A stretch of 64,000 nt of DNA from Methanoregula sp. PtaU1.Bin051 (GTDB lineage: Archaea; Halobacteriota; Methanomicrobia; Methanomicrobiales; Methanospirillaceae). The notes beneath the pieces were generated by a model. The model saw only the letters and a list, made by a program, of their open reading frames with translations, did not search any database and was not told the DNA's origin. Below are positions 33,483-43,845 of the stretch, piece after piece. Location: positions 248,001 to 312,000 of the forward strand of contig MVRE01000006.1 of NCBI GenBank assembly GCA_002067895.1, read 5' to 3'. The position numbers and the translations under genes are program-made. Positions within the stretch are counted from its first letter, which is position 1. Each line of letters begins with the position of its first letter.

Positions 33483-34427
33483 TTAAGCGTTCAGGCCCGA
33501 ACGATAGTGGTGCGTTCCTGGATGTACCATATCGATCAGGGTCCGGTCAAAGATATCCTCTTCTCTGATCACCTGTGACACATACCCGAGTGCCTGCAGG
33601 GTCTTTGCAAATTTCATAGTAGACACGACATATTCGGAAGGAAGTGCTGCACAATAATTTGGAGAGATGCAATAGGCCGCAAGGACGAATTCCTCATTGA
33701 CCATACCGGTCGTTTCCGCAACAATGCGGGCTGCAGAACGGGGATCATGACGTATCATCTCACACGCCGCTTCGTGAACCTCCAAAAATTTCCTGAGTGG
33801 TTCCGTGTTTTTGAGCATCCGGCGCATGACGACTATGCCATAACTTGGATTAAACGGCCAGAGCTGACTGGCAGGCACGACCAGCCGTGCGCTGCCGTAT
33901 CTCGCGGCTGTCACCGCGAGCGCTGGTGTACCGGCAGCAGCGGTAATCTCGTTGTTCTGGAGTGCGTCAGGAAGGAAATCAGCCCACGGATAATTCGTTA
34001 TGGAAACGTCCCTGATACCATGCTCCTGCAACAGTTCGTTTATGATTACATCGTGGATGGAACCTTTAGGCGGTGTGCCAATCGCTTTTCCGGAGAACTG
34101 TGAGAGGAAATCCGGCATGTTCCTGCACTCTGCAAGCGAACGGACGCCGGTACCGGCGATCATGACCGTGCCCTCGATATGGCCTCCGGCGATGCAGGCG
34201 AGGGATAGCCCTCTGTCGATACCGATGATGACCGGGGGAAGACCGATATATGCGAGATCGATCTTCTGTTCCTGCATGGCGGAAATGATATCCGGGCCAG
34301 AGGGAAAGAGCGTCCATTGCGTAGTTACATCCTGTTTTTCCAGCAGATCCGTTCCTTTCAGGATGAATGCGGTGTGATAGATAGTGGAAAGGTGCCCGAT
34401 CCTGAGTGTTTTGTTCCCCGATGACAT
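33483..34427 (-). CDS. NMT1/SsuA-type substrate-binding-like protein without signal peptide
   Basis: About 314 residues from ATG 34427 (a GTG at 34442 is in frame). After SSGNKTLRIGHLSTIYHTAF it follows the periplasmic-binding fold: FPSGPDIISAMQEQKIDLAY, IGLPPVIIGIDRG, LACIAGGHIEGTVMIAG, and a second lobe with SRLVVPASQLWPFNPSYG-like VVMRR. Related SsuA/TauA/ThiY proteins bind sulfonates, nitrate or thiamine precursors. There is no signal peptide or lipobox, and no permease gene next to it, which argues for a cytosolic sensor or metabolite-binding role. It lies just downstream of the HTH regulator on the same strand. Confidence 0.7.
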   Translation of the reverse strand: MSSGNKTLRIGHLSTIYHTAFILKGTDLLEKQDVTTQWTLFPSGPDIISAMQEQKIDLAYIGLPPVIIGIDRGLSLACIAGGHIEGTVMIAGTGVRSLAECRNMPDFLSQFSGKAIGTPPKGSIHDVIINELLQEHGIRDVSITNYPWADFLPDALQNNEITAAAGTPALAVTAARYGSARLVVPASQLWPFNPSYGIVVMRRMLKNTEPLRKFLEVHEAACEMIRHDPRSAARIVAETTGMVNEEFVLAAYCISPNYCAALPSEYVVSTMKFAKTLQALGYVSQVIREEDIFDRTLIDMVHPGTHHYRSGLNA

Positions 34428-34469
34428 TGATCCGATCCCCACGAACCTTCGTTCTGCCCGATAATCTGC

Positions 34470-34958
34470 CTACCCGATCTTTCGCCCGACAACGCCGATC
34501 GCATCGCGGACGCAGGACTGGTCCGGGCGGAGCATGGAGACCGGAACATCGACAATCTTTTCGATGATGGATGCAAGGATCGGAGCACAGACAATACCGG
34601 CAGCACCGTCTTTTTCCGCCCGTGCGGCAGCGATGATGCATTCCTCAAGGGAGTTGGCAGAATATCCCCGGATAACATAGGTTTTCCCGTTGAACGGGAG
34701 TTCCCGGAACTCGAGCGAGTCGAGGATGAACTTCGCCCCGATCACCGCGATGAACCGGTTGCGTTCCTGCTCAAGCACGGACACAATCTTTTTCACGGTC
34801 GAGAGGCGCGGGTCGCGCTCCCCCATCGTTACTTTGTAGAGCGTGGAAACGGGAATGCCGGTCTGGTCGGCGAGTTCCTTAACCGTCAGGTCCTTCTTTT
34901 CCAGCTCCTCGTTAAGCGCTGTCTTGAAATCGGTCTCGAAAATTCTTTTTGATAGCAT
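34470..34958 (-). CDS. HTH regulator with C-terminal ligand-binding-like domain
   Basis: 162 residues from ATG 34958 (frame continues six codons upstream). Residues 14-50 are a Cro/C1-type HTH: DLTVKELADQTGIPVSTLYK VTMGERDPRLSTVKKI. The C-terminal part, LPFNGKTYVIRGYSANSLEE, CIIAAARAEKDGAAGIVCAP, ASIIEKIVDVPVSML, looks like an alpha/beta sensor domain. It is divergent from the coenzyme M operon, with repeated A/T boxes between them (34973-35034), so it is the likely regulator of that operon. The substrate-binding-like protein downstream may be a partner. Confidence 0.7.
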   Translation of the reverse strand: MLSKRIFETDFKTALNEELEKKDLTVKELADQTGIPVSTLYKVTMGERDPRLSTVKKIVSVLEQERNRFIAVIGAKFILDSLEFRELPFNGKTYVIRGYSANSLEECIIAAARAEKDGAAGIVCAPILASIIEKIVDVPVSMLRPDQSCVRDAIGVVGRKIG

Positions 34959-34972
34959 ATTATCCTTTAAGT

Positions 34973-35034
34973 GCAATTTTCTATGATATAATTATTGCTA
35001 AAAGGAAAATTATTTTACGTAATTGGAAAATTAT
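34973..35034 (+). promoter_or_regulatory. Divergent operator region with repeated GGAAAATTAT boxes
   Basis: GGAAAATTAT occurs at 35004-35013 and 35025-35034, 21 bases apart (two helical turns), with an inverted half site gcaattttc at 34973-34981. The stretch is very A/T-rich and separates the HTH regulator from the ABC ATPase gene. These are the obvious candidate binding sites for the regulator. Confidence 0.5.
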
Positions 35035-35061: not shown

Positions 35062-35865
35062 ATGGAAAGAGATCAGTTCATGGAGCTTACTGTGCTTCCC
35101 GGCACAGACCGCTGCGGGGAAAGAGAGGGTTTTGACCGGATCACCCTGCGTCCCGGTGATACAGTATCGATCGTGGGATCTACCGGGTCTGGAAAATCGG
35201 CATTCATCAATGACATCGAGGTACTTGCCCAGAAAGATACAGTCACAGGCCGTTCGATCCTGATCAATGGCGCCCCGCCATCTGACGACATGGTCCGCGA
35301 TCCGGCAAAAAAACCGATCGCGCTCATAACGCAAAACACCCGGGTCATCGCAGATCTGACCGTCAGCCGGTTCCTCGCCCTTCACACAAAGGCACGGGAC
35401 ACCGATGCCGGGGAACTGATTACAAGGACTGTTGCGCTTGCAAATGAATTCACCGGGGAAAAAATTGCCGGGTCCACGCGGATGACCTCGCTTTCCGGCG
35501 GCCAGACCCGGTCGCTCCTCATCGCCGATGCCATCATGATCGGGCAGACCCCAATCCTGCTCCTCGACGAAGTGGAAAATGCAGGAATCTTCAAAGAGAA
35601 GGTCATCCGCTGTTTAAAGCATTATGAGAAAGCCGTCATTTTTGTCACCCACGACCCCCTCCTCTCCCTGATCACCGACCGCCGGATCGTCATGAAGCAC
35701 GGTGCGGTCGTGGATGTCCTTGAACCGAAGGACGAGGAGCGGGAGATGATCTCGCATGTTTCCCGCATCGATGCGTTCCTCGTGGAGCTCCGGGAGAGGA
35801 TCCGGGCCGGGGACCTGATCACGGGCGATATGCCGATGTGCAGAATGCCCCGTGTCACGGCATGA
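35062..35865 (+). CDS. ABC-type ATPase in the coenzyme M operon
   Basis: 267 residues from ATG 35062 (ERDQFMELTVLPGTDRCGER). Walker A GSTGSGKSAF, Q-loop ITQNTRV, signature LSGGQTRSLL, Walker B ILLLDEVENAG and switch His VTHDP are present, so it should hydrolyse ATP. No permease gene is adjacent; the protein may be soluble, as are the AtwA-type ATPases in methanogens. The C-terminal extension RERIRAGDLITGDMPMCRMP is not typical of importers. Its stop overlaps the GTPase start (ATGA), showing tight coupling. It opens the five-gene operon with cysteate synthase and ComDE. Confidence 0.75.
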   Translation: MERDQFMELTVLPGTDRCGEREGFDRITLRPGDTVSIVGSTGSGKSAFINDIEVLAQKDTVTGRSILINGAPPSDDMVRDPAKKPIALITQNTRVIADLTVSRFLALHTKARDTDAGELITRTVALANEFTGEKIAGSTRMTSLSGGQTRSLLIADAIMIGQTPILLLDEVENAGIFKEKVIRCLKHYEKAVIFVTHDPLLSLITDRRIVMKHGAVVDVLEPKDEEREMISHVSRIDAFLVELRERIRAGDLITGDMPMCRMPRVTA

Positions 35866-36569
35866 AGCTGATCATCGTTGCCGGTCCGCCCAGTGCGGGA
35901 AAAACTGCGGTGATCCGGCAGATCATACGTGAATTTTCAAAATCGGGCAACCCGGCCTTTTTGAAGATCGATGTCGTCCGGGCGTTCGAGGATGATGAAC
36001 TCAGGGAAGAGTTCGGCATTCCTGCAAGGAAGGTATATTCCGGCGATCTCTGCCCGGATCACATGGGCATCATGATCATGCGGGATGCAATTTCCTGGGC
36101 GCAGGGCCTCAATGCAGGTCTCCTCATCATCGAGAGCGCCGGCCTCTGCCTCCGCTGCACGCCCTACACGACGCAGGCATTCGGTATAGCCGTGCTCTCG
36201 GCTGTTTCAGGCAACAATTCCCCGCTCAAGATGGCGCCCATGATCGCACTCGCGGATGTGGCGGTGGTGACAAAGACGGACCTCGTCTCTCAGGCGGAAA
36301 AGGAGGTGTTCCGGGAATGCATCAGGATGGTCACCCCCGCAATCGATATCATCGAGACGAACGCGATCCAGGGTACCGGCATGCGGTACCTGATGCAGGC
36401 GATTGCGGCGTACCCGGACATTACGGATCCCGGTACGATCACCCTCCGGGGCACGCCGCCCCTCGGAGTCTGCACCATCTGCGTCGGAAAGAAAGAGATT
36501 GGATGGCAGCGCCATTTCGGCGTAATCCGGCCGCTTGACGGGGCCGATACCATTTACCGGGGCGACTGA
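35862..36569 (+). CDS. G3E-type (HypB/UreG-like) GTPase
   Basis: 235 residues, ATG 35862 in an ATGA overlap. KLIIVAGPPSAGKTAVIRQI is the P-loop; IESAGLCLRCTPYT gives an E-S-A-G plus CxxC pair; VVTKTDLVSQ is the NKxD-like guanine specificity motif; the tail TLRGTPPLGVCTICVGKKEI holds another CxxC. HypB and UreG load nickel in hydrogenase and urease, CooC/CobW do related jobs, so a metal or cofactor insertion role is plausible. Its position in the operon with a Fe-S protein and CoM genes suggests maturation of an enzyme in that pathway, which is not shown. Confidence 0.75.
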   Translation: MKLIIVAGPPSAGKTAVIRQIIREFSKSGNPAFLKIDVVRAFEDDELREEFGIPARKVYSGDLCPDHMGIMIMRDAISWAQGLNAGLLIIESAGLCLRCTPYTTQAFGIAVLSAVSGNNSPLKMAPMIALADVAVVTKTDLVSQAEKEVFRECIRMVTPAIDIIETNAIQGTGMRYLMQAIAAYPDITDPGTITLRGTPPLGVCTICVGKKEIGWQRHFGVIRPLDGADTIYRGD

Positions 36570-36571
36570 CA

Positions 36572-37186
36572 ATGGTCTGGATCCCGCCGGGCAAAGACTG
36601 CGGGGCCTGCGGCTTAGCAAGCTGCGGGGAATTCCGGATCCTTGCAGAATCCGGTAAAAGAAATTTCTCTGACTGCCCGTATTTTTCAACGGAACTGGGG
36701 TGGTGCGCGACAAAAGCATCTTACTCGGGTACTGACATACTGGGACACCAGTACGATTTTGTACTGGCCGCGTTTGAGGGTGAAATATCGGCACGAAAAT
36801 TTATCGTGCCCTTCCGTGCAGATCTTGTTGAGCGCTGGGATATCGGCCCGGGGGAGATCGTCACCGGCCGCCCGGCCGGAGCCGGGTGCCCAATCTATCA
36901 TGCGCTGCGCGTGATCTCTGTAAACCCGGTCACCGGCGTTCTTGAATGCCACACGGTCGGCCCGCTTGAAGCCCGGAAAGGGAAGGTGCACGACGTCCAG
37001 GCATACCATGTCCATGCTTTCGAAGGTATTGCCGAGGTTATCAGAAATCCGCCGGTACTGGGAGCACGGCAGCGGTTCCTGCCGGGATACTGCATGATGG
37101 ACCTTTCCCATACGGCCGTCATAAACATGGTTCTGAAAAAGAAGGGGGGGATTCATGTCAGGCTCGAGGACATCCGCCTCCTGTAG
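36572..37186 (+). CDS. Fe-S cluster protein in the coenzyme M operon
   Basis: 204 residues. The N terminus CGACGLASCGEFRILAESGK then RNFSDCPYF fits a [4Fe-4S] motif of the Fe-S_4 type (Cx2Cx4CxnC). The rest is an unrecognised alpha/beta domain (FVLAAFEGEISARKFIVPFR, RPAGAGCPIYHALRVI, LECHTVGPLEARKGKVHDVQ). It sits between the GTPase and cysteate synthase with 2- and 6-base gaps. Similar proteins are known in methanogens but I do not know a demonstrated function. Since the last steps from sulfoacetaldehyde to coenzyme M are not fully settled, it is a candidate participant. Confidence 0.65.
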   Translation: MVWIPPGKDCGACGLASCGEFRILAESGKRNFSDCPYFSTELGWCATKASYSGTDILGHQYDFVLAAFEGEISARKFIVPFRADLVERWDIGPGEIVTGRPAGAGCPIYHALRVISVNPVTGVLECHTVGPLEARKGKVHDVQAYHVHAFEGIAEVIRNPPVLGARQRFLPGYCMMDLSHTAVINMVLKKKGGIHVRLEDIRLL

Positions 37187-37192
37187 GCATCC

Positions 37193-38467
37193 ATGATCCC
37201 TAAGTACCGGATCCGGTGTGTTGGCGGGAACGAGCTCGTTACGGATATCACGCGACTCTCCTGCCCTGACGGTCATGATTCCCTGCTCAGGACCGAGTAC
37301 CGTGAGCGGAGGCTCCGGCTCGCGCCGTTTTCCGGGATGTACCGGTACCTCGCGTGGCTTCCGGTAGAGCGTCCTATGCTCCCCGCAGGCGGCCCGGTGA
37401 CTTTTACCCATGAAGGGCTATCTAAGGAGCTCGGCCTTTCCCGCCTTTCCATCTCTTTCTCCGGCTATTTTCCAGAATACGGGGCGAACCTTGTTACCGG
37501 CTCGTTCAAGGAACTGGAAGCCTCCCCGACCATGCAGCGGCTGGAGGAACTCGGGGGAAAAATCCCGGTGATCGCCTCGGCAGGAAATACCGGCCGTGCC
37601 TTTGCAGGAATATCCGCACGGTGTAAGAAGCCGGTGGTTATCGTCGTACCGGAACAGGCGCTCTCCCGCCTCTGGACGGTTGAGCCGTCACGGGATGTCT
37701 TCCTTGTTGCAGTTAGGGGGGATTATACCGATGCGATCGCTCTTTCCAGCATGCTTGCGGATGTCCCCGGCTGTGTGCCGGAGGGCGGTGCGAAGAACAT
37801 CGCGCGCCGGGACGGTATGGGCACGGTGATGCTCGATGCCGCAGTGAAGACTGACAGGATGCCGGATCACTATTTCCAGGCGGTCGGCAGCGGCACCGGC
37901 GCCATCGCCGCATGGGAGGCGGCGCTGCGGTTACGGGCCGACGGGCGGTACGGGATAATTCTCCCGAAGCTGCACTGCGCACAGAACGAACCGTTTACAC
38001 CGATAGTCTCGGCATGGCACGTCCACCGCCGCACGATTATTCCGGATACTGACATGCCGGATCCCGTCAACAAAGTCCGAAACGTGATGGCCGATGTGCT
38101 CACCAACCGCAACCCCCCGTATGGCATCGCCGGGGGACTGTTTGATGCGCTGAAGGATACCAATGGTCTGATGTACAGCGTCACCAACGCGGAAGGCAGG
38201 AGTGCGATGAAGATGATCCATGATGTCGTGGGAATCGACCTCGATCCTGCCGCAGCGATTGCGACGGCAGCTCTGATCCGGGCCATTGAGGCCGGTACCG
38301 CGAAACCGTCGGATACCATCCTCCTGAATTTGACCGGCGGGGGATATGAGCGGATCCGGGAAGACTTCACGCTCTTTCCCGTAGAACCTGTACTTACCGT
38401 GCGGCCGGACGAACGCGGGGACGAACTGTTTGTCACGCTCAGGGAGTGGACTAAACGCTATGGATGA
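37193..38467 (+). CDS. Cysteate synthase
   Basis: 424 residues, a PLP enzyme derived from threonine synthase. PKYRIRCVGGNELVTDITRL is the family start; the PLP lysine is Lys106 in LVTGSFKELEASPTM; IPVIASAGNTGRAFAGIS binds phosphate; FQAVGSGTGAIAAWEAAL is the glycine loop. In Methanosarcinales and Methanomicrobiales the enzyme makes cysteate from O-phosphoserine and sulfite, the first committed step of an alternative CoM route. Its stop overlaps the start of the sulfopyruvate decarboxylase gene, which uses the next but one intermediate. The assignment rests on this context and on the sequence type. Confidence 0.9.
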   Translation: MIPKYRIRCVGGNELVTDITRLSCPDGHDSLLRTEYRERRLRLAPFSGMYRYLAWLPVERPMLPAGGPVTFTHEGLSKELGLSRLSISFSGYFPEYGANLVTGSFKELEASPTMQRLEELGGKIPVIASAGNTGRAFAGISARCKKPVVIVVPEQALSRLWTVEPSRDVFLVAVRGDYTDAIALSSMLADVPGCVPEGGAKNIARRDGMGTVMLDAAVKTDRMPDHYFQAVGSGTGAIAAWEAALRLRADGRYGIILPKLHCAQNEPFTPIVSAWHVHRRTIIPDTDMPDPVNKVRNVMADVLTNRNPPYGIAGGLFDALKDTNGLMYSVTNAEGRSAMKMIHDVVGIDLDPAAAIATAALIRAIEAGTAKPSDTILLNLTGGGYERIREDFTLFPVEPVLTVRPDERGDELFVTLREWTKRYG

Positions 38468-39590
38468 GAAACAGATCATCAGCCAGATGAAATCGCAGGG
38501 GATCGACCTCGTGTGTTCCATCCCCTGCGATAAGGCAAAAGGGCTGTTCTTTTCCCTGCCGGAAGAGTTCCGTCATATCGGGCTTACCCGCGAGGAGGAC
38601 GGAGTGGGGATCTCGGCCGGTGCATACCTTGCCGGCGCCCGCCCGCTTGTTGCCCTCCAGAGCTCGGGGCTTGGGAACATGCTGAATGCTATCCTCTCCC
38701 TTACGGTGACGTTTGGCATCCCGCTCCCGATCCTCGCGAGCTGGCGGGGAGGCGAAAAAGAATCGATATTGGCACAGGTACCGTTCAACCGCTCGCTGCC
38801 ACGGATCCTGTCGGCGGCCGGGATACCCTGTACAATCGTATCCGGTCCGGATAAGCCGGATGAGATCGGGGACGCAATCACTGCATCTTACAGGAGCCGG
38901 CAGCCGCACGTCGTCCTTGTACCGCCGGAATGCCTTGAAGAATCCGGATGCCCCGCAACTGCCCTGCCGCCCGCCCCGGCCCTCCGCACTCTCTCTATCT
39001 GCTATGAGAGGAAATGGCGGATTCCGGTTATGCGAAGGTACGACGCAATACGGCAGATTGCATCGCTTGTGAATGATGAAATATTGGTCTCAAACATCGG
39101 CGTCCCGTCAAAGGAGCTTTTTGCTGCACGCGATCGGCCGGAGAACTTCTACATGCTCGGGAGCTACACACAGGCATCTGCGATCGGGCTTGGCATTGCG
39201 GTCGCCCTGCCGAAAAGACGTGTAATCGTACTTGACGGCGACGGCAGCCTGCTGGGCTCTTCAGTCCTTACTGTGATCGCCGCTTCCGCGCCAAAAAACC
39301 TCACGATTGTCGGGCTGGACAATGGCGTCTTCGGCAGCACCGGAAACCAGCCACGGCCGGGGACAAAAACCGCGGACCTCGCTCTCATGGCGCTGGGTGC
39401 GGGGTTCGCCGTCAGCAGGGCCGTACACGAACCGGGAGAACTCGCGGAGGCGATCCGGGCATCTGCAGGAAACGGACCCTCGTTCATCCACACCCGGATC
39501 CTGCCGGGGAACGCGGACGTTCCGAATATACCCATAGCCCCTTCACAAATCCGCGACCGGTTGATGACCGCTTTGAGGGCTCGGAAGTAA
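38460..39590 (+). CDS. comDE: Fused sulfopyruvate decarboxylase (ComDE)
   Basis: 376 residues from ATG 38460, overlapping the previous stop. The N-terminal half is the ComD-type PYR domain (IDLVCSIPCDKAKGLFFSLP, LTREEDGVGISAGAYLAGAR with catalytic Glu), the C-terminal half the ComE-type PP domain with LDGDGSLLGSSVLTVIAASA and DN, the GDG...N motif for Mg-thiamine diphosphate. It decarboxylates sulfopyruvate to sulfoacetaldehyde. In Methanocaldococcus the halves are two proteins; here they are fused, as in Methanosarcina. An aminotransferase for the step between is not in the window. Confidence 0.9.
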   Translation: MDEKQIISQMKSQGIDLVCSIPCDKAKGLFFSLPEEFRHIGLTREEDGVGISAGAYLAGARPLVALQSSGLGNMLNAILSLTVTFGIPLPILASWRGGEKESILAQVPFNRSLPRILSAAGIPCTIVSGPDKPDEIGDAITASYRSRQPHVVLVPPECLEESGCPATALPPAPALRTLSICYERKWRIPVMRRYDAIRQIASLVNDEILVSNIGVPSKELFAARDRPENFYMLGSYTQASAIGLGIAVALPKRRVIVLDGDGSLLGSSVLTVIAASAPKNLTIVGLDNGVFGSTGNQPRPGTKTADLALMALGAGFAVSRAVHEPGELAEAIRASAGNGPSFIHTRILPGNADVPNIPIAPSQIRDRLMTALRARK

Positions 39591-40169: not shown

Positions 40170-40592
40170 TTATACTGTTTTTCCCGACCCGTGGGAGTGC
40201 TCGCCGGGCACCCAGCGGCCGCCATCCCTCGTGAGTTCCTTCTTCCAGATGGGGACTTTTACCTTGATCTCCTCGATGATGAACCGGGATCCCGCATACG
40301 CCTCCTGCCGGTGCCCCGCGGATACCACGATTGCGAGGATGTTCTCGCCAATGGCAAGCCGCCCGATCCGGTGGACGATGTCGACATGGAGGAGCGAAAA
40401 CTTCGCCGTTGCCTCCTTTGCAATCTTTTCAAGTTCCGGCAGCGCGACTTCGGTGTATGCCTCCAGTTCGATCTCCCGGATGTCGTCGTCGCGTACGATC
40501 CCGTCAAAGACAACGATCGCCCCGGTACCGGGTTTCCTCGCTTCCGTAACCAGTTGAGCGATATTTACGTCTTCTTTCTGGATAGCAATCAT
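40170..40592 (-). CDS. moaE: Molybdopterin synthase catalytic subunit
   Basis: 140 residues from ATG 40592. GAIVVFDGIVRDDDIREIEL, LEAYTEVALPELEKIAKEAT, VHRIGRLAIGENILAIVVSA and KVPIWKKELTRDGGRWVPGE are MoaE motifs, including the lysines used in catalysis. It joins two sulfur atoms from MoaD-thiocarboxylate onto precursor Z to give molybdopterin, used by formate or formylmethanofuran dehydrogenase. It follows moaD by 16 bases in the moeB-moaD-moaE order. Confidence 0.9.
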   Translation of the reverse strand: MIAIQKEDVNIAQLVTEARKPGTGAIVVFDGIVRDDDIREIELEAYTEVALPELEKIAKEATAKFSLLHVDIVHRIGRLAIGENILAIVVSAGHRQEAYAGSRFIIEEIKVKVPIWKKELTRDGGRWVPGEHSHGSGKTV

Positions 40593-40608
40593 CGGACCAC
40601 GTTCCCTG

Positions 40609-40887
40609 TCACCCGCCTGCAACCGGTGGAAAGACGGCAATCTCGTCGCCATCGGAGATACCGGTCCTTCCGGCATCCGAAACGTCGACCCGTTTCCCGT
40701 TCTGCATCAGGATCACGAACTCGCGGAAATTCCCGCTTTCATCGAAAATGGCATTATAGCCTTCCCTGTTCTTTTCTGTAACCGACCGGACAAGATCTGC
40801 GATGTTTGTCCCGTCTTTAAATCCCGCCATACTCTCGGCCCCGAGCAGTTCCCGGAACCTGGCAAAAAAACGGATCCTTACCGTCAT
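40609..40887 (-). CDS. moaD: Molybdopterin synthase sulfur carrier subunit
   Basis: 92 residues from ATG 40887 (TVRIRFFARFRELLGAES). The ubiquitin-like fold ends in VAVFPPVAGG with the terminal Gly-Gly needed for adenylation and thiocarboxylation. Its ATG overlaps the stop of the E1-like gene (ATGA), so the carrier and its activator are translated together. Partner of MoaE. Confidence 0.9.
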   Translation of the reverse strand: MTVRIRFFARFRELLGAESMAGFKDGTNIADLVRSVTEKNREGYNAIFDESGNFREFVILMQNGKRVDVSDAGRTGISDGDEIAVFPPVAGG

Positions 40888-41639
40888 CGTACCCTCTTGT
40901 GCATCGTTGTATTCTTTGAAGTGCTGCATACCGGGCATGCCGGGTTCCGTTCAACCGCCATCTCCTCGGCGCGCGACGCTTTGCCGTCCCAGATGAAGAG
41001 CCGGTTTGCTAGGAGGTCCCCGTCTTTAACAAGATACTTGATGACCTCCGTTGCCTGGATCGCACCGATAACCCCCGGGGTCGTACCGACTACGGGGGAG
41101 ACCTCTTCCGGCGGGGCTTTTGGAAAGATGCAGGCAAGGCAGGGGGTTTTATCCGGAATGATCGTCGTTGCCTGCCCGAAAAATCCCTGGATGGCCCCAT
41201 GGAATAACGGGATTTTCTTTTCAAGAGCGGCCCTGTTCAGGATATACCGGGCGGGGAAATTGTCCAGCGCGTCGACAATGCCGTCTGCATTTCCGACAAG
41301 CTTCGAAACGTTCTTTTCACCGATTGCGGCAGTTATGGCATTCACTTCGGTATCCGGATTGATCTCCGTAAGCTTCTCCGCAATGGATGAGCTCTTCTCC
41401 CTTCCGATGTCACGGTCGTAGTGCAGGATCTGCCGGTTGAGGTTGCTTTGTTCGACAATGTCACGGTCAACGATTGTAATCTTGCCGATGCCGGCAACGG
41501 CAAGGTATATCGCGACCGGGCAGCCAAGACCCCCTGCCCCTGCGATGAAGATTTCGGATTGTTTCAGTCTCTCCTGCCCTTCTTCCAAAAAGAGCAGGAT
41601 CTGCCGTTGATACCGTTCAAGTTCGCGCCGTGATATCAT
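40884..41639 (-). CDS. moeB: E1-like adenylyltransferase (MoeB/ThiF family)
   Basis: 251 residues. ELERYQRQILLF and FIAGAGGLGCPVAIYLAVAG mark the ATP-binding start; NLNRQILHYDRDIGREKSSS is the Arg/Gln finger region; the zinc site is CLAC plus CPVC. It activates the C-terminal glycine of MoaD (and perhaps of the SAMP at 44795). The catalytic Cys of UBA/MoeB proteins may be in TPCLACIF. First gene of the moeB-moaD-moaE operon; a gap of 174 bases with A/T stretches upstream should hold the promoter. Confidence 0.9.
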   Translation of the reverse strand: MISRRELERYQRQILLFLEEGQERLKQSEIFIAGAGGLGCPVAIYLAVAGIGKITIVDRDIVEQSNLNRQILHYDRDIGREKSSSIAEKLTEINPDTEVNAITAAIGEKNVSKLVGNADGIVDALDNFPARYILNRAALEKKIPLFHGAIQGFFGQATTIIPDKTPCLACIFPKAPPEEVSPVVGTTPGVIGAIQATEVIKYLVKDGDLLANRLFIWDGKASRAEEMAVERNPACPVCSTSKNTTMHKRVR

Positions 41640-41813
41640 TGTTCATCCTGCCATAATCTACAGATGTGTGACCGTTCCGGATCCGATTTTTTGTTTGTCT
41701 GCAGGTTCTTTTTGTTCACCCTTGATGATGTAATTATTTATTGAAGATTGCCGGCATTCTTCCGCCACACAAATGTACTTTAGGCCGGAAACGCGATAAC
41801 TTAAGGTTGTGAT

Positions 41814-42188
41814 GTGATGGAGGCCCCGTGCCAGAAGATTGTCTGGGATGTACTGCCGGCAATCCGTGCGGTGATAGCAGTAGAGCTTGTCAGACGCGGT
41901 GTCTCACAGACACGGGCGGCAAAGATGCTGGAGATCGCCCCGTCGGCAGTATCCCAGTACCTGTCCGGCAAGCGCGGGTACCGCATCGAGTTCGATGACG
42001 ACGTGAAGAAGTCCATCGGGCAGCTGGCGCAGGATCTCAGGGAGGGACGGGTCAGGAATAACCTCGTTCAGAGGATCTGCGATATCTGCCGCCAGTTGCG
42101 CGATGAAAAGGACCGGTGCGGGAAGGACCAGAGCCGGTGCAGCCCCCCTCCCGCGACGGGTTCCAAGCGGCGGAGATCCAATCGGTAA
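41814..42188 (+). CDS. HTH-type transcriptional regulator
   Basis: 124 residues. An HTH of the Cro/C1 kind is clear: GVSQTRAAKMLEIAPSAVSQ YLSGKRGYRIEFDDDVKKSI. The C-terminal ICDICRQLRDEKDRCGK has a CxxC that could bind metal or sense redox state, and the tail is Lys/Arg-rich. It is transcribed divergently from moeB and precedes larE by 16 bases, so it may control the molybdopterin/formate-dehydrogenase block. Start at ATG 41814 or two codons later. Confidence 0.75.
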   Translation: MMEAPCQKIVWDVLPAIRAVIAVELVRRGVSQTRAAKMLEIAPSAVSQYLSGKRGYRIEFDDDVKKSIGQLAQDLREGRVRNNLVQRICDICRQLRDEKDRCGKDQSRCSPPPATGSKRRRSNR

Positions 42189-42204
42189 CGGGGTCTTGTC
42201 TCAT

Positions 42205-43002
42205 ATGGAATTGTCTGACAGGAAGGCCCTGCTTAAAAAAATTATTGCGGATAAAGGGTCGATGCTGGTCGCATTCTCTGGCGGTGTCGATTCCGGGCTC
42301 CTCGCATATCTGGCCCGGAACCTGTTAAAAGAAAAATGCCGGTGCGTTCTCCTTGACAGCCCGGTTATGCCCCGCGATGAGATCCGTCAGGCGGAGGAGA
42401 TTGCAAAGAACCTCGGGCTTGCCCTTGAGATCATTCCCGCCCCGCTCATGGAATCCGCGCACTTCAGGGGTAACCTGAAAGAACGGTGCTACCACTGCAA
42501 AAAGATACTGTCGGGGATTTTAAAGAAGAGGGCAGAAGAACTGGCCCTGTCCTGCGTTGCCGACGGCCTCAATGTAACGGACACCGGAGAATACCGGCCC
42601 GGAATCCGTGCGAGCGATGAAGAGGGCATCCTCCACCCGTTTATCGAAGCCGGAATAACAAAGGAGGAGATCAGGGCCATTGCACGGGAAAACCGGCTCC
42701 CGTTCTGGGACAAGCCTTCAGCAGCCTGTCTTTCTTCCCGGATCCCATACGGGGAAGAGATCACGGAAAAGAAGCTTCTGATGATCGAGAAAGCGGAAGG
42801 GTACCTCCACCGGCTGGGGATCCGGCAGCTGAGAGTCAGGCTGCATGGAAAAATGGCGCGGATTGAGGCTGACGATGAGGGAATGGCAACAATTTTTGCC
42901 AATAAAGGTGAAGTGGTAAAAGTATTCGAAGAGATCGGGTTTTCCTCTGTAACCCTCGACCTTGCCGGCTACCGCAGAGGGAGCATGGACGAAACGATCT
43001 GA
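42205..43002 (+). CDS. larE: LarE-like ATP-dependent sulfur transferase
   Basis: 265 residues from ATG 42205. PP-loop SGGVDSGLLAYLA near 25-37, KERCYHCKK near 92-100, ADGLNVTDTGEYRPGIRAS, and KPSAACLSSRIPYGEEI with Cys175, the residue that donates its own sulfur in Lactiplantibacillus LarE (Cys176). LarE makes the nickel-pincer cofactor for lactate racemase; in archaea without that enzyme the target may be another organosulfur cofactor. It lies between a HTH gene and fdhD, so a link to formate dehydrogenase sulfuration is possible. Confidence 0.85.
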   Translation: MELSDRKALLKKIIADKGSMLVAFSGGVDSGLLAYLARNLLKEKCRCVLLDSPVMPRDEIRQAEEIAKNLGLALEIIPAPLMESAHFRGNLKERCYHCKKILSGILKKRAEELALSCVADGLNVTDTGEYRPGIRASDEEGILHPFIEAGITKEEIRAIARENRLPFWDKPSAACLSSRIPYGEEITEKKLLMIEKAEGYLHRLGIRQLRVRLHGKMARIEADDEGMATIFANKGEVVKVFEEIGFSSVTLDLAGYRRGSMDETI

Positions 43003-43020
43003 CTGGACAGGTGGTATGCG

Positions 43021-43845
43021 ATGAAGAAAAAAGAACCCGGCAACGATCCGGAAGCCATGGCCGGTATTGGAGAGGATCGCCGGATGTACAGGGGTATCCC
43101 CGCCATCCAGATCTCCGGCGACCATGCGTCAAGGGTGACTCACGAGGTTATCGAGGAGATCCCGTATGCGCTCTTCATCAACGGCCGTCATGCCATGACG
43201 GCGATGATGAGCCCGGTCCGGCTCGAAGATTTTGTCACCGGTTACCTCTTTACGGAACAGATCATAAAAAAGCCGGAGGAGATCGAGTCGATTAGGATCG
43301 AGAAGAACCGGATCAGCGTGATCACAAAAAACCTGTTCAAGGTTGTCGGGCCCAAGAAGACCATCCTCTCGGGCTGCGGGGGCAGCACGTCCTATATCGA
43401 TACGGAAAAATTACCGAAAATACGCTCGGACCTGACGATTACGGCACAGATGATCCGGGACAGGACAAAGGAAGGGCTCGAATCCGACCTGCATGTCAAG
43501 ACCGGGGGCATCCATGTTGTCGTTCTGGCTGACAAGGAGGGCATTATTACATGCGCCGAAGACATCGGGAGGCATAATGCAATGGACCGGGTGATCGGTT
43601 ACGGGTTGGGGAACGGCACCGACTTTTCAAAGACCTTCGTTATCTGTTCCGGCAGGATCTCCTCCGAAATGGCCCGCAAGTGCCTGACCGCCAATATCCC
43701 GATCATGATCTCACGGGGTGCGACAACAACGCTTGCCATCGATATCGCAAAAAGGACCGGCTTAACCGTCGTCGCCTTTGCCCGCAGCATGAAGATGATG
43801 GTTTATACGAACCCGGAACGCATCGAAGACGCCCGGGTGCCCTGA
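43021..43845 (+). CDS. fdhD: FdhD-like formate dehydrogenase accessory sulfurtransferase
   Basis: 274 residues. FDGR-less start then EIPYALFINGRHAMTAMMSP, EDFVTGYLFTEQIIKKPEEI, TGGIHVVVLADKEGI, CAEDIGRHNAMDRVIGYGL and SGRISSEMARKCLTANIPI match FdhD. The usual CGxC sulfur-handling motif is CGGS here (LSGCGGSTSYI): the first Cys is kept, the second replaced by Ser. FdhD passes sulfur to the Mo/W-bis-MGD cofactor of formate dehydrogenase, the route by which formate-using methanogens gain electrons. It closely follows larE. Confidence 0.88.
   Translation: MKKKEPGNDPEAMAGIGEDRRMYRGIPAIQISGDHASRVTHEVIEEIPYALFINGRHAMTAMMSPVRLEDFVTGYLFTEQIIKKPEEIESIRIEKNRISVITKNLFKVVGPKKTILSGCGGSTSYIDTEKLPKIRSDLTITAQMIRDRTKEGLESDLHVKTGGIHVVVLADKEGIITCAEDIGRHNAMDRVIGYGLGNGTDFSKTFVICSGRISSEMARKCLTANIPIMISRGATTTLAIDIAKRTGLTVVAFARSMKMMVYTNPERIEDARVP

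Follow-up and report, generated by a model that had tools for sequence, protein, structure and literature searches.

Coenzyme M (CoM) is essential for biological methane formation, and its sulfonate group is built from sulfite. Two enzymes are described in published passages as taking up this sulfite: cysteate synthase, which combines it with phosphoserine, and ComA, which combines it with phosphoenolpyruvate (PMC12713407, PMC3087415). Where methanogens grown on sulfide obtain the sulfite for CoM is treated as an open question in passages of two papers; one suggests a siroheme protein oxidising sulfide, some methanogens being without it (PMC3448663), and the other likewise considers this reverse reaction possible (PMC6286981). 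In B. subtilis, a second operon beyond ComA/ComB was inferred to serve phosphosulfolactate synthesis (PMC517825). For the thiol-forming step, experiments in M. acetivorans identified MMP16 (ComF) as the primary CoM synthase, L-ASST was put forward as possibly replacing it in part where sulfide is available, and E. coli carrying the MMP16 homologue MJ1681 on a plasmid was reported to turn sulfoacetaldehyde into CoM (PMC12068725).

The closest described system appears in the same paper, where the legend of Fig. 2 (Chadwick et al. 2025, PMC12068725) reports frequent colocalisation of CoM biosynthesis genes with those of an ATPase, a Ni2+-binding GTPase and a COG2000 Fe-S protein, to which it assigns no known role. 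The clustering of these genes with CoM genes is already in print, and since the paper covers the thiol-forming step as well, neither the clustering nor a vacancy at that step is new. It was the only paper found to connect COG2000 with CoM in a search whose coverage left out most subscription journals.

The operon and its gene products

The window, a stretch of 64,000 nucleotides from Methanoregula sp. PtaU1.Bin051 (genome G000), contains the genes for an ABC ATPase, a HypB-like GTPase and an Fe-S protein, hereafter the trio, followed by two genes of CoM synthesis. The operon and its upstream neighbours are arranged as follows.

33483..34442, minus strand: SsuA/NMT1-like binding protein, adjoining the HTH gene (PF13379)
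34470..34976, minus strand: HTH regulator, divergent from the trio (PF01381)
35062..35865, plus strand: soluble ABC-type ATPase of the trio (PF00005, 57.2 bits against a cut-off of 25)
35862..36569, plus strand: HypB/UreG-like G3E GTPase of the trio, predicted to bind metal (PF02492, 46.6 bits against a gathering threshold of 20.7)
36572..37186, plus strand: COG2000-type Fe-S protein of the trio (PF04060, 30 bits)
37187..37192, plus strand: junction of 6 bases, where MMP16/ComF (about 1.15 kb) sits in relatives and is absent here
37193..38467, plus strand: cysteate synthase, sulfite-using (TIGR03844 equivalog, 611.6 bits against a cut-off of 324.9)
38460..39590, plus strand: ComDE, fused sulfopyruvate decarboxylase (TIGR03845, 199 bits, and TIGR03846, 235 bits, both over cut-off)

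Coordinates, domain matches and spacing bear out an earlier note on this DNA, which described five genes overlapping or lying within a few bases of one another. As read from the sequence, the ATPase and GTPase genes share an ATGA overlap, the GTPase and Fe-S genes are 2 bases apart, the Fe-S gene is separated from cysteate synthase by 6 bases, and cysteate synthase overlaps ComDE by 8. The identification of the last two genes in the same note also stands, both being over curated family cut-offs. Among 87 related loci an HTH regulator lies beside the trio in 23 and an SsuA/NMT1-like gene in 12; the SsuA/NMT1-like protein of the window has no evident signal peptide, judged by eye, and the pair (window positions 33483-34976) is a possible sensor of CoM or of a sulfonate. 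Downstream of the operon, positions 40170-43845 hold a block of sulfur-transfer genes (MoaE, MoaD-like, MoeB, LarE and FdhD) with partial synteny in loci L262 and L033.

In alignments of 32 homologues, the Walker A, Q-loop, LSGGQ, Walker B and H-loop residues of the ABC ATPase are invariant, as are the CPDH, the CxRC and the C-terminal CxxC with its following histidine in the GTPase. No permease partner for the ATPase is encoded among the five genes. The GTPase scored 68.7 bits against the HypB equivalog TIGR00073 (cut-off 121.2) and 27.7 bits against the UreG equivalog (cut-off 204.2). The Fe-S protein joins an N-terminal 4Fe-4S domain, with four cluster cysteines, to a C-terminal beta-rich domain in which C106, H110 and C174 are invariant and H180 is found in at least 90% of the aligned rows, a diverged form of the protein included and one row stopping before H180. 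AlphaFold2 gave a pLDDT of 88.9 for the whole protein and 91.1 for the C-terminal domain. The protein had no NCBIfam match; PF04060 is the model matched here, and the name COG2000 is taken from PMC12068725. Fold searches with the C-terminal domain gave no match that convinced as a relative, the best having Z 4.0 and an rmsd of 2.5-2.6 across 63 residues, and such empty searches are no evidence of a new fold.

The set of ABC ATPase, GTPase and Fe-S genes recurs in nearly all of the 87 related loci, and its clustering is therefore not a matter of chance. ATPase and GTPase genes are adjacent in 78 of 84 archaeal and 21 of 22 bacterial loci, and GTPase and Fe-S genes in 81 of 84 and 22 of 22, the 84 archaeal loci exceeding the number of genomes because a few contigs were counted twice. 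In archaea the Fe-S gene abuts MMP16 in 44 of the 84 loci, where the two matches often share one base, and runs directly into cysteate synthase in 16, which include the named Methanoregula loci L031-L034 and L036. In the archaeal locus L154 (7286-10628), a gene for a NifS-type cysteine desulfurase separates the GTPase and Fe-S genes of the trio; SufB/SufC-like genes lie near this trio, the SufC label coming from a reading of the sequence. Extra or lone methanogen copies of the trio in L169, L170, L172, L269 and L270 do not adjoin CoM genes within the stretch fetched, and G068, G211 and G358 also hold copies away from CoM genes.

Occurrence in archaea and bacteria

Among 61 genomes of the order, the Fe-S protein is present in 39, cysteate synthase is over cut-off in 40 and MMP16 (model TIGR03287) is over cut-off in 39. 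Cysteate synthase was found in 39/39 genomes with the Fe-S gene against 1/22 without it, whereas the corresponding figures for MMP16 are 37/39 and 2/22, so that the tie of the trio to cysteate synthase is no looser than its tie to ComF, joint absences included. This co-occurrence with cysteate synthase is a new observation. The two Fe-S genomes without MMP16 are G000 and G017; MMP16 occurs without the Fe-S gene in G049, together with cysteate synthase, and in G046, which has no cysteate synthase either. A diverged form of the trio, its Fe-S protein about 31-34% identical by tblastn, adjoins cysteate synthase in other methanogen families (L156-L159, L161-L164), mostly with ComD/ComE adjacent too. 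In the archaeal phylum, by comparison, 392 genomes include 26 with a ComA over cut-off, and only G201 among these 26 has a full-length Fe-S match, which led us to reject the trio as a universal companion of ComA in archaea.

Most relatives with the trio have MMP16 placed between the genes for the Fe-S protein and cysteate synthase. Genome G000 has the cysteate synthase and the sulfopyruvate decarboxylase of the type 2 (cysteate synthase) CoM pathway, and no MMP16/ComF was detected in it: the highest TIGR03287 score comes from a paralogue, 164 bits where the cut-off is 363.95, in a genome listed as 96% complete. Its relative G017, which is one contig and is given as 99% complete, likewise has only the paralogue as best match, below the cut-off. 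That both genomes keep the trio, cysteate synthase and ComDE without an MMP16 over the cut-off is a new observation. Among the loci with the direct junction, the rest of the genome was checked for MMP16 in these two and in G037 and G055, and in the latter pair it is encoded elsewhere. Since G000 is without ComF, its L-ASST-like paralogue (G000:C20) is a likely candidate for the thiol-forming enzyme there, and a natural loss of ComF from an otherwise intact pathway offers a test of whether L-ASST can replace it. The thought that the trio serves L-ASST was given up, because genomes of the order that have no Fe-S gene still carry genes of the L-ASST type.

Scanning with an alignment of the Fe-S protein gave 66 loci, in which the ATPase and GTPase genes lie beside the Fe-S gene except on contigs cut short. 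By the GTPase tree 22 of the 66 are bacterial and group as a single clade (support 100/100) next to the archaeal sequences; they belong to Heliobacteriaceae, Desulfotomaculaceae, Peptococcaceae, unclassified Bacillota and one genome labelled Desulfovibrio. Loci L040, L046 and L071, labelled Nitrospirae, Nanohalarchaeota and Bacilli, group with methanogen sequences in the same tree and are probably mis-binned contigs. ComA was found in 20 of the 22 bacterial locus genomes. In a sample of 199 genomes from the phylum of G405, a full-length Fe-S protein occurs in 17, short matches having been discarded as looking like the 4Fe-4S domain of corrinoid proteins, and ComA is over cut-off in 16 of these 17 against 60 of the 182 others (Fisher p 8e-7; co-occurrence p values here ignore phylogeny, and the bacterial trio is one clade). 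Nine of the 17 overlap the locus genomes, giving a union of 30 bacterial trio genomes; 28 have ComA, and in G409 and G415 it was not detected. Immediately upstream of the trio there is ComA in L065 and L070 and ComA-ComB in L052 (3 of 22 loci in all; in L052 ComA passes PF02679 and TIGR03849, and ComB passes PF04029), and ComA lies within 8 kb in L066, L067 and L073. In most bacterial loci the trio is a stand-alone operon.

The ComDE alpha domain was over cut-off in none of the 30 bacterial trio genomes, G411 having a 99-bit relative, and these genomes therefore have no known source of sulfoacetaldehyde. Of the 30, 22 encode a COG1900 protein; two of these proteins were scored and, at 141 and 132 bits, fall short of the MMP16 cut-off of 364. 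None was found in the other 8, among them the heliobacteria G412, G413, G414 and G420. By these results the known later steps of CoM synthesis are lacking in the bacterial trio genomes. The intact trio in Bacillota, heliobacteria included, without sulfopyruvate decarboxylase and mostly with ComA, is likewise new, and literature searches, which do not reach most subscription journals, gave no report of a bacterial trio with ComA.

In trio-negative bacteria, ComA neighbourhoods were examined for sulfite-making genes in 40 of 60 genomes, the recurrent neighbours being a major-facilitator transporter, ComB and DUF441. An ABC ATPase cluster beside ComA in 14 of these 40 loci was dropped, as the clustering had lumped unrelated transporters. 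Across 66 ComA loci of Bacillota (L202-L261 with L052, L065-L067, L070 and L073; ComA not detected in 2 of the 66), the same neighbours were counted 39 (transporter), 33 (ComB) and 32 (DUF441) times.

These distributions divide the central suggestion of the earlier note, which regarded the three proteins as strong candidates for a missing thiol-forming reaction of the CoM pathway or its maturation. The link to sulfonate or CoM synthesis survives, for the note proposed to check co-occurrence with cysteate synthase, and every one of the 39 Fe-S genomes has this enzyme while 21 of the other 22 are without it. The vacant step is not supported: ComF already has that role and the trio occurs in bacteria without ComDE or COG1900 proteins, so the trio as the missing thiol-forming enzyme was set aside. 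One point in favour of the note is that G000 itself has no ComF. Contrary evidence had been looked for in archaea that cluster the trio without making CoM, and the order yielded none, but its stronger form is present in the bacteria that lack the rest of the CoM route.

Possible roles of the trio

In our judgement the trio probably belongs to sulfonate synthesis. Cysteate synthase and ComA are unrelated yet both use sulfite, and sulfite is thus the common substrate that links the two partners of the trio. We tentatively prefer the reading that the trio is accessory to the sulfite-consuming, sulfonate-forming step and, in strict anaerobes, would most likely supply the sulfite; with the same reserve, sulfite supply may be considered the most economical specific role. 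More doubtful is the wider proposal of an unrecognised anaerobic route from sulfide or cysteine sulfur to sulfite, which methanogens would use for CoM and Bacillota for sulfolactate, and which would feed two unrelated sulfite-users.

From gene order, motifs, co-occurrence and linkage, all of them observed, we infer each biochemical step of the preferred reading, sulfite as the product included. The entry step served would be cysteate synthase in these archaea and ComA in Bacillota. The Fe-S protein would be the catalytic part, with C106, H110, C174 and H180 holding a putative metal or sulfur site and the 4Fe-4S domain passing electrons, while the metal-binding GTPase and the soluble ABC ATPase might load or energise the C-terminal site. 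The feed could be sulfide or cysteine-derived sulfane sulfur.

In favor of sulfite supply we count the complete link to cysteate synthase (39/39), the association and linkage with ComA, the lack of ComDE in 30/30 bacterial trio genomes, the cysteine desulfurase gene inside the L154 trio and the distribution of ATP sulfurylase. It had been predicted beforehand that ATP sulfurylase would be rarer in trio-bearing ComA bacteria, and this was borne out: among 76 ComA genomes, PF01747, a model that misses the CysDN-type enzyme, was found in 1 of 16 with the trio against 28 of 60 without (p 0.003). For the sulfite-supply reading this contrast is suggestive only. Several findings count against the reading, however. 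Neither the trio nor PF01747 is present in 32 of the 60 ComA-positive, trio-negative bacteria, and Heliophilum fasciatum (L075), which has both the trio and ComA, grows on sulfate and is reported to have CysNDC, AprAB and CysH (PMC9147875). Those genes amount to a sulfite source invisible to the PF01747 test. Furthermore, archaeal ComA genomes are mostly without the trio, G049 has cysteate synthase and MMP16 but no Fe-S gene, ComA was not detected in G409 and G415, and in archaea the Fe-S gene abuts MMP16 (44/84) more often than cysteate synthase (16/84).

The frequent junction with MMP16 is also what sustains the main rival, namely that the trio matures or feeds MMP16, or the L-ASST paralogue where MMP16 has been lost, by metal insertion or by delivery of sulfur or electrons for the thiol step. 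MMP16 is moreover present in 37/39 Fe-S genomes of the order, and two loci (L167, L168) have the trio and MMP16 with cysteate synthase not nearby. We nevertheless regard this explanation as unlikely, since the trio persists in G000 and the one-contig G017 with MMP16 missing, some genomes of the order that lack the Fe-S gene have L-ASST-type paralogues, COG1900 is absent from 8/30 bacterial trio genomes, and MJ1681 is reported to work from a plasmid in E. coli (PMC12068725).

Of similarly low probability is a role for the trio in maturing the metal center, for example nickel, of another enzyme, its connection to CoM being regulatory or historical. That the trio is linked time and again to cysteate synthase and ComA argues against this role, as does the fact that genomes of the order without cysteate synthase are also without the Fe-S gene; what speaks for it is the HypB/UreG-like GTPase, with its invariant CPDH and two further Cys pairs, which is described as Ni2+-binding (PMC12068725), and the many stand-alone operons in bacteria. 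Still less probable is a part in sulfonate or sulfite defence, such as sulfite detoxification, or in CoM salvage. A cytosolic SsuA/NMT1-like neighbor in 12/87 loci would fit this, but the five genes include no permease, and genomes without cysteate synthase, which would be expected to need salvage more, are without the Fe-S gene too. As regards sulfite supply, the reading that we prefer, the question of the sulfite source becomes testable through a set of three genes that accompanies the sulfite-using step in these archaea and in Bacillota.

Comparison with described systems

The trio of PMC12068725 has the same three gene types beside CoM genes. The operon of the window differs from it in being without MMP16/ComF, and the bacterial trio with ComA goes unmentioned in the abstract, in sections 4 and 6 and in the further passages available from that paper. 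The nickel-delivery GTPases HypB and UreG have in common with the trio GTPase a nucleotide-binding domain and a Cys/His metal motif, whereas the extra CxRC and C-terminal CxxC, and scores below both family cut-offs, set the latter apart. The large subunit of the corrinoid/Fe-S protein resembles the trio Fe-S protein in its N-terminal 4Fe-4S domain, by PF04060 and by a match in structure that spans 42 residues (Z 5.1, rmsd 2.4-2.5), but the trio protein has no match to the corrinoid domain. Finally, the yitBA-yisZ genes of B. subtilis lie beside yitCD (ComB/ComA) and form a gene set that was proposed, together with yitCD, to serve phosphosulfolactate synthesis. We take the yitBA-yisZ products to be sulfate-reducing enzymes, leading from sulfate to sulfite, and it is in this that they differ from the trio.
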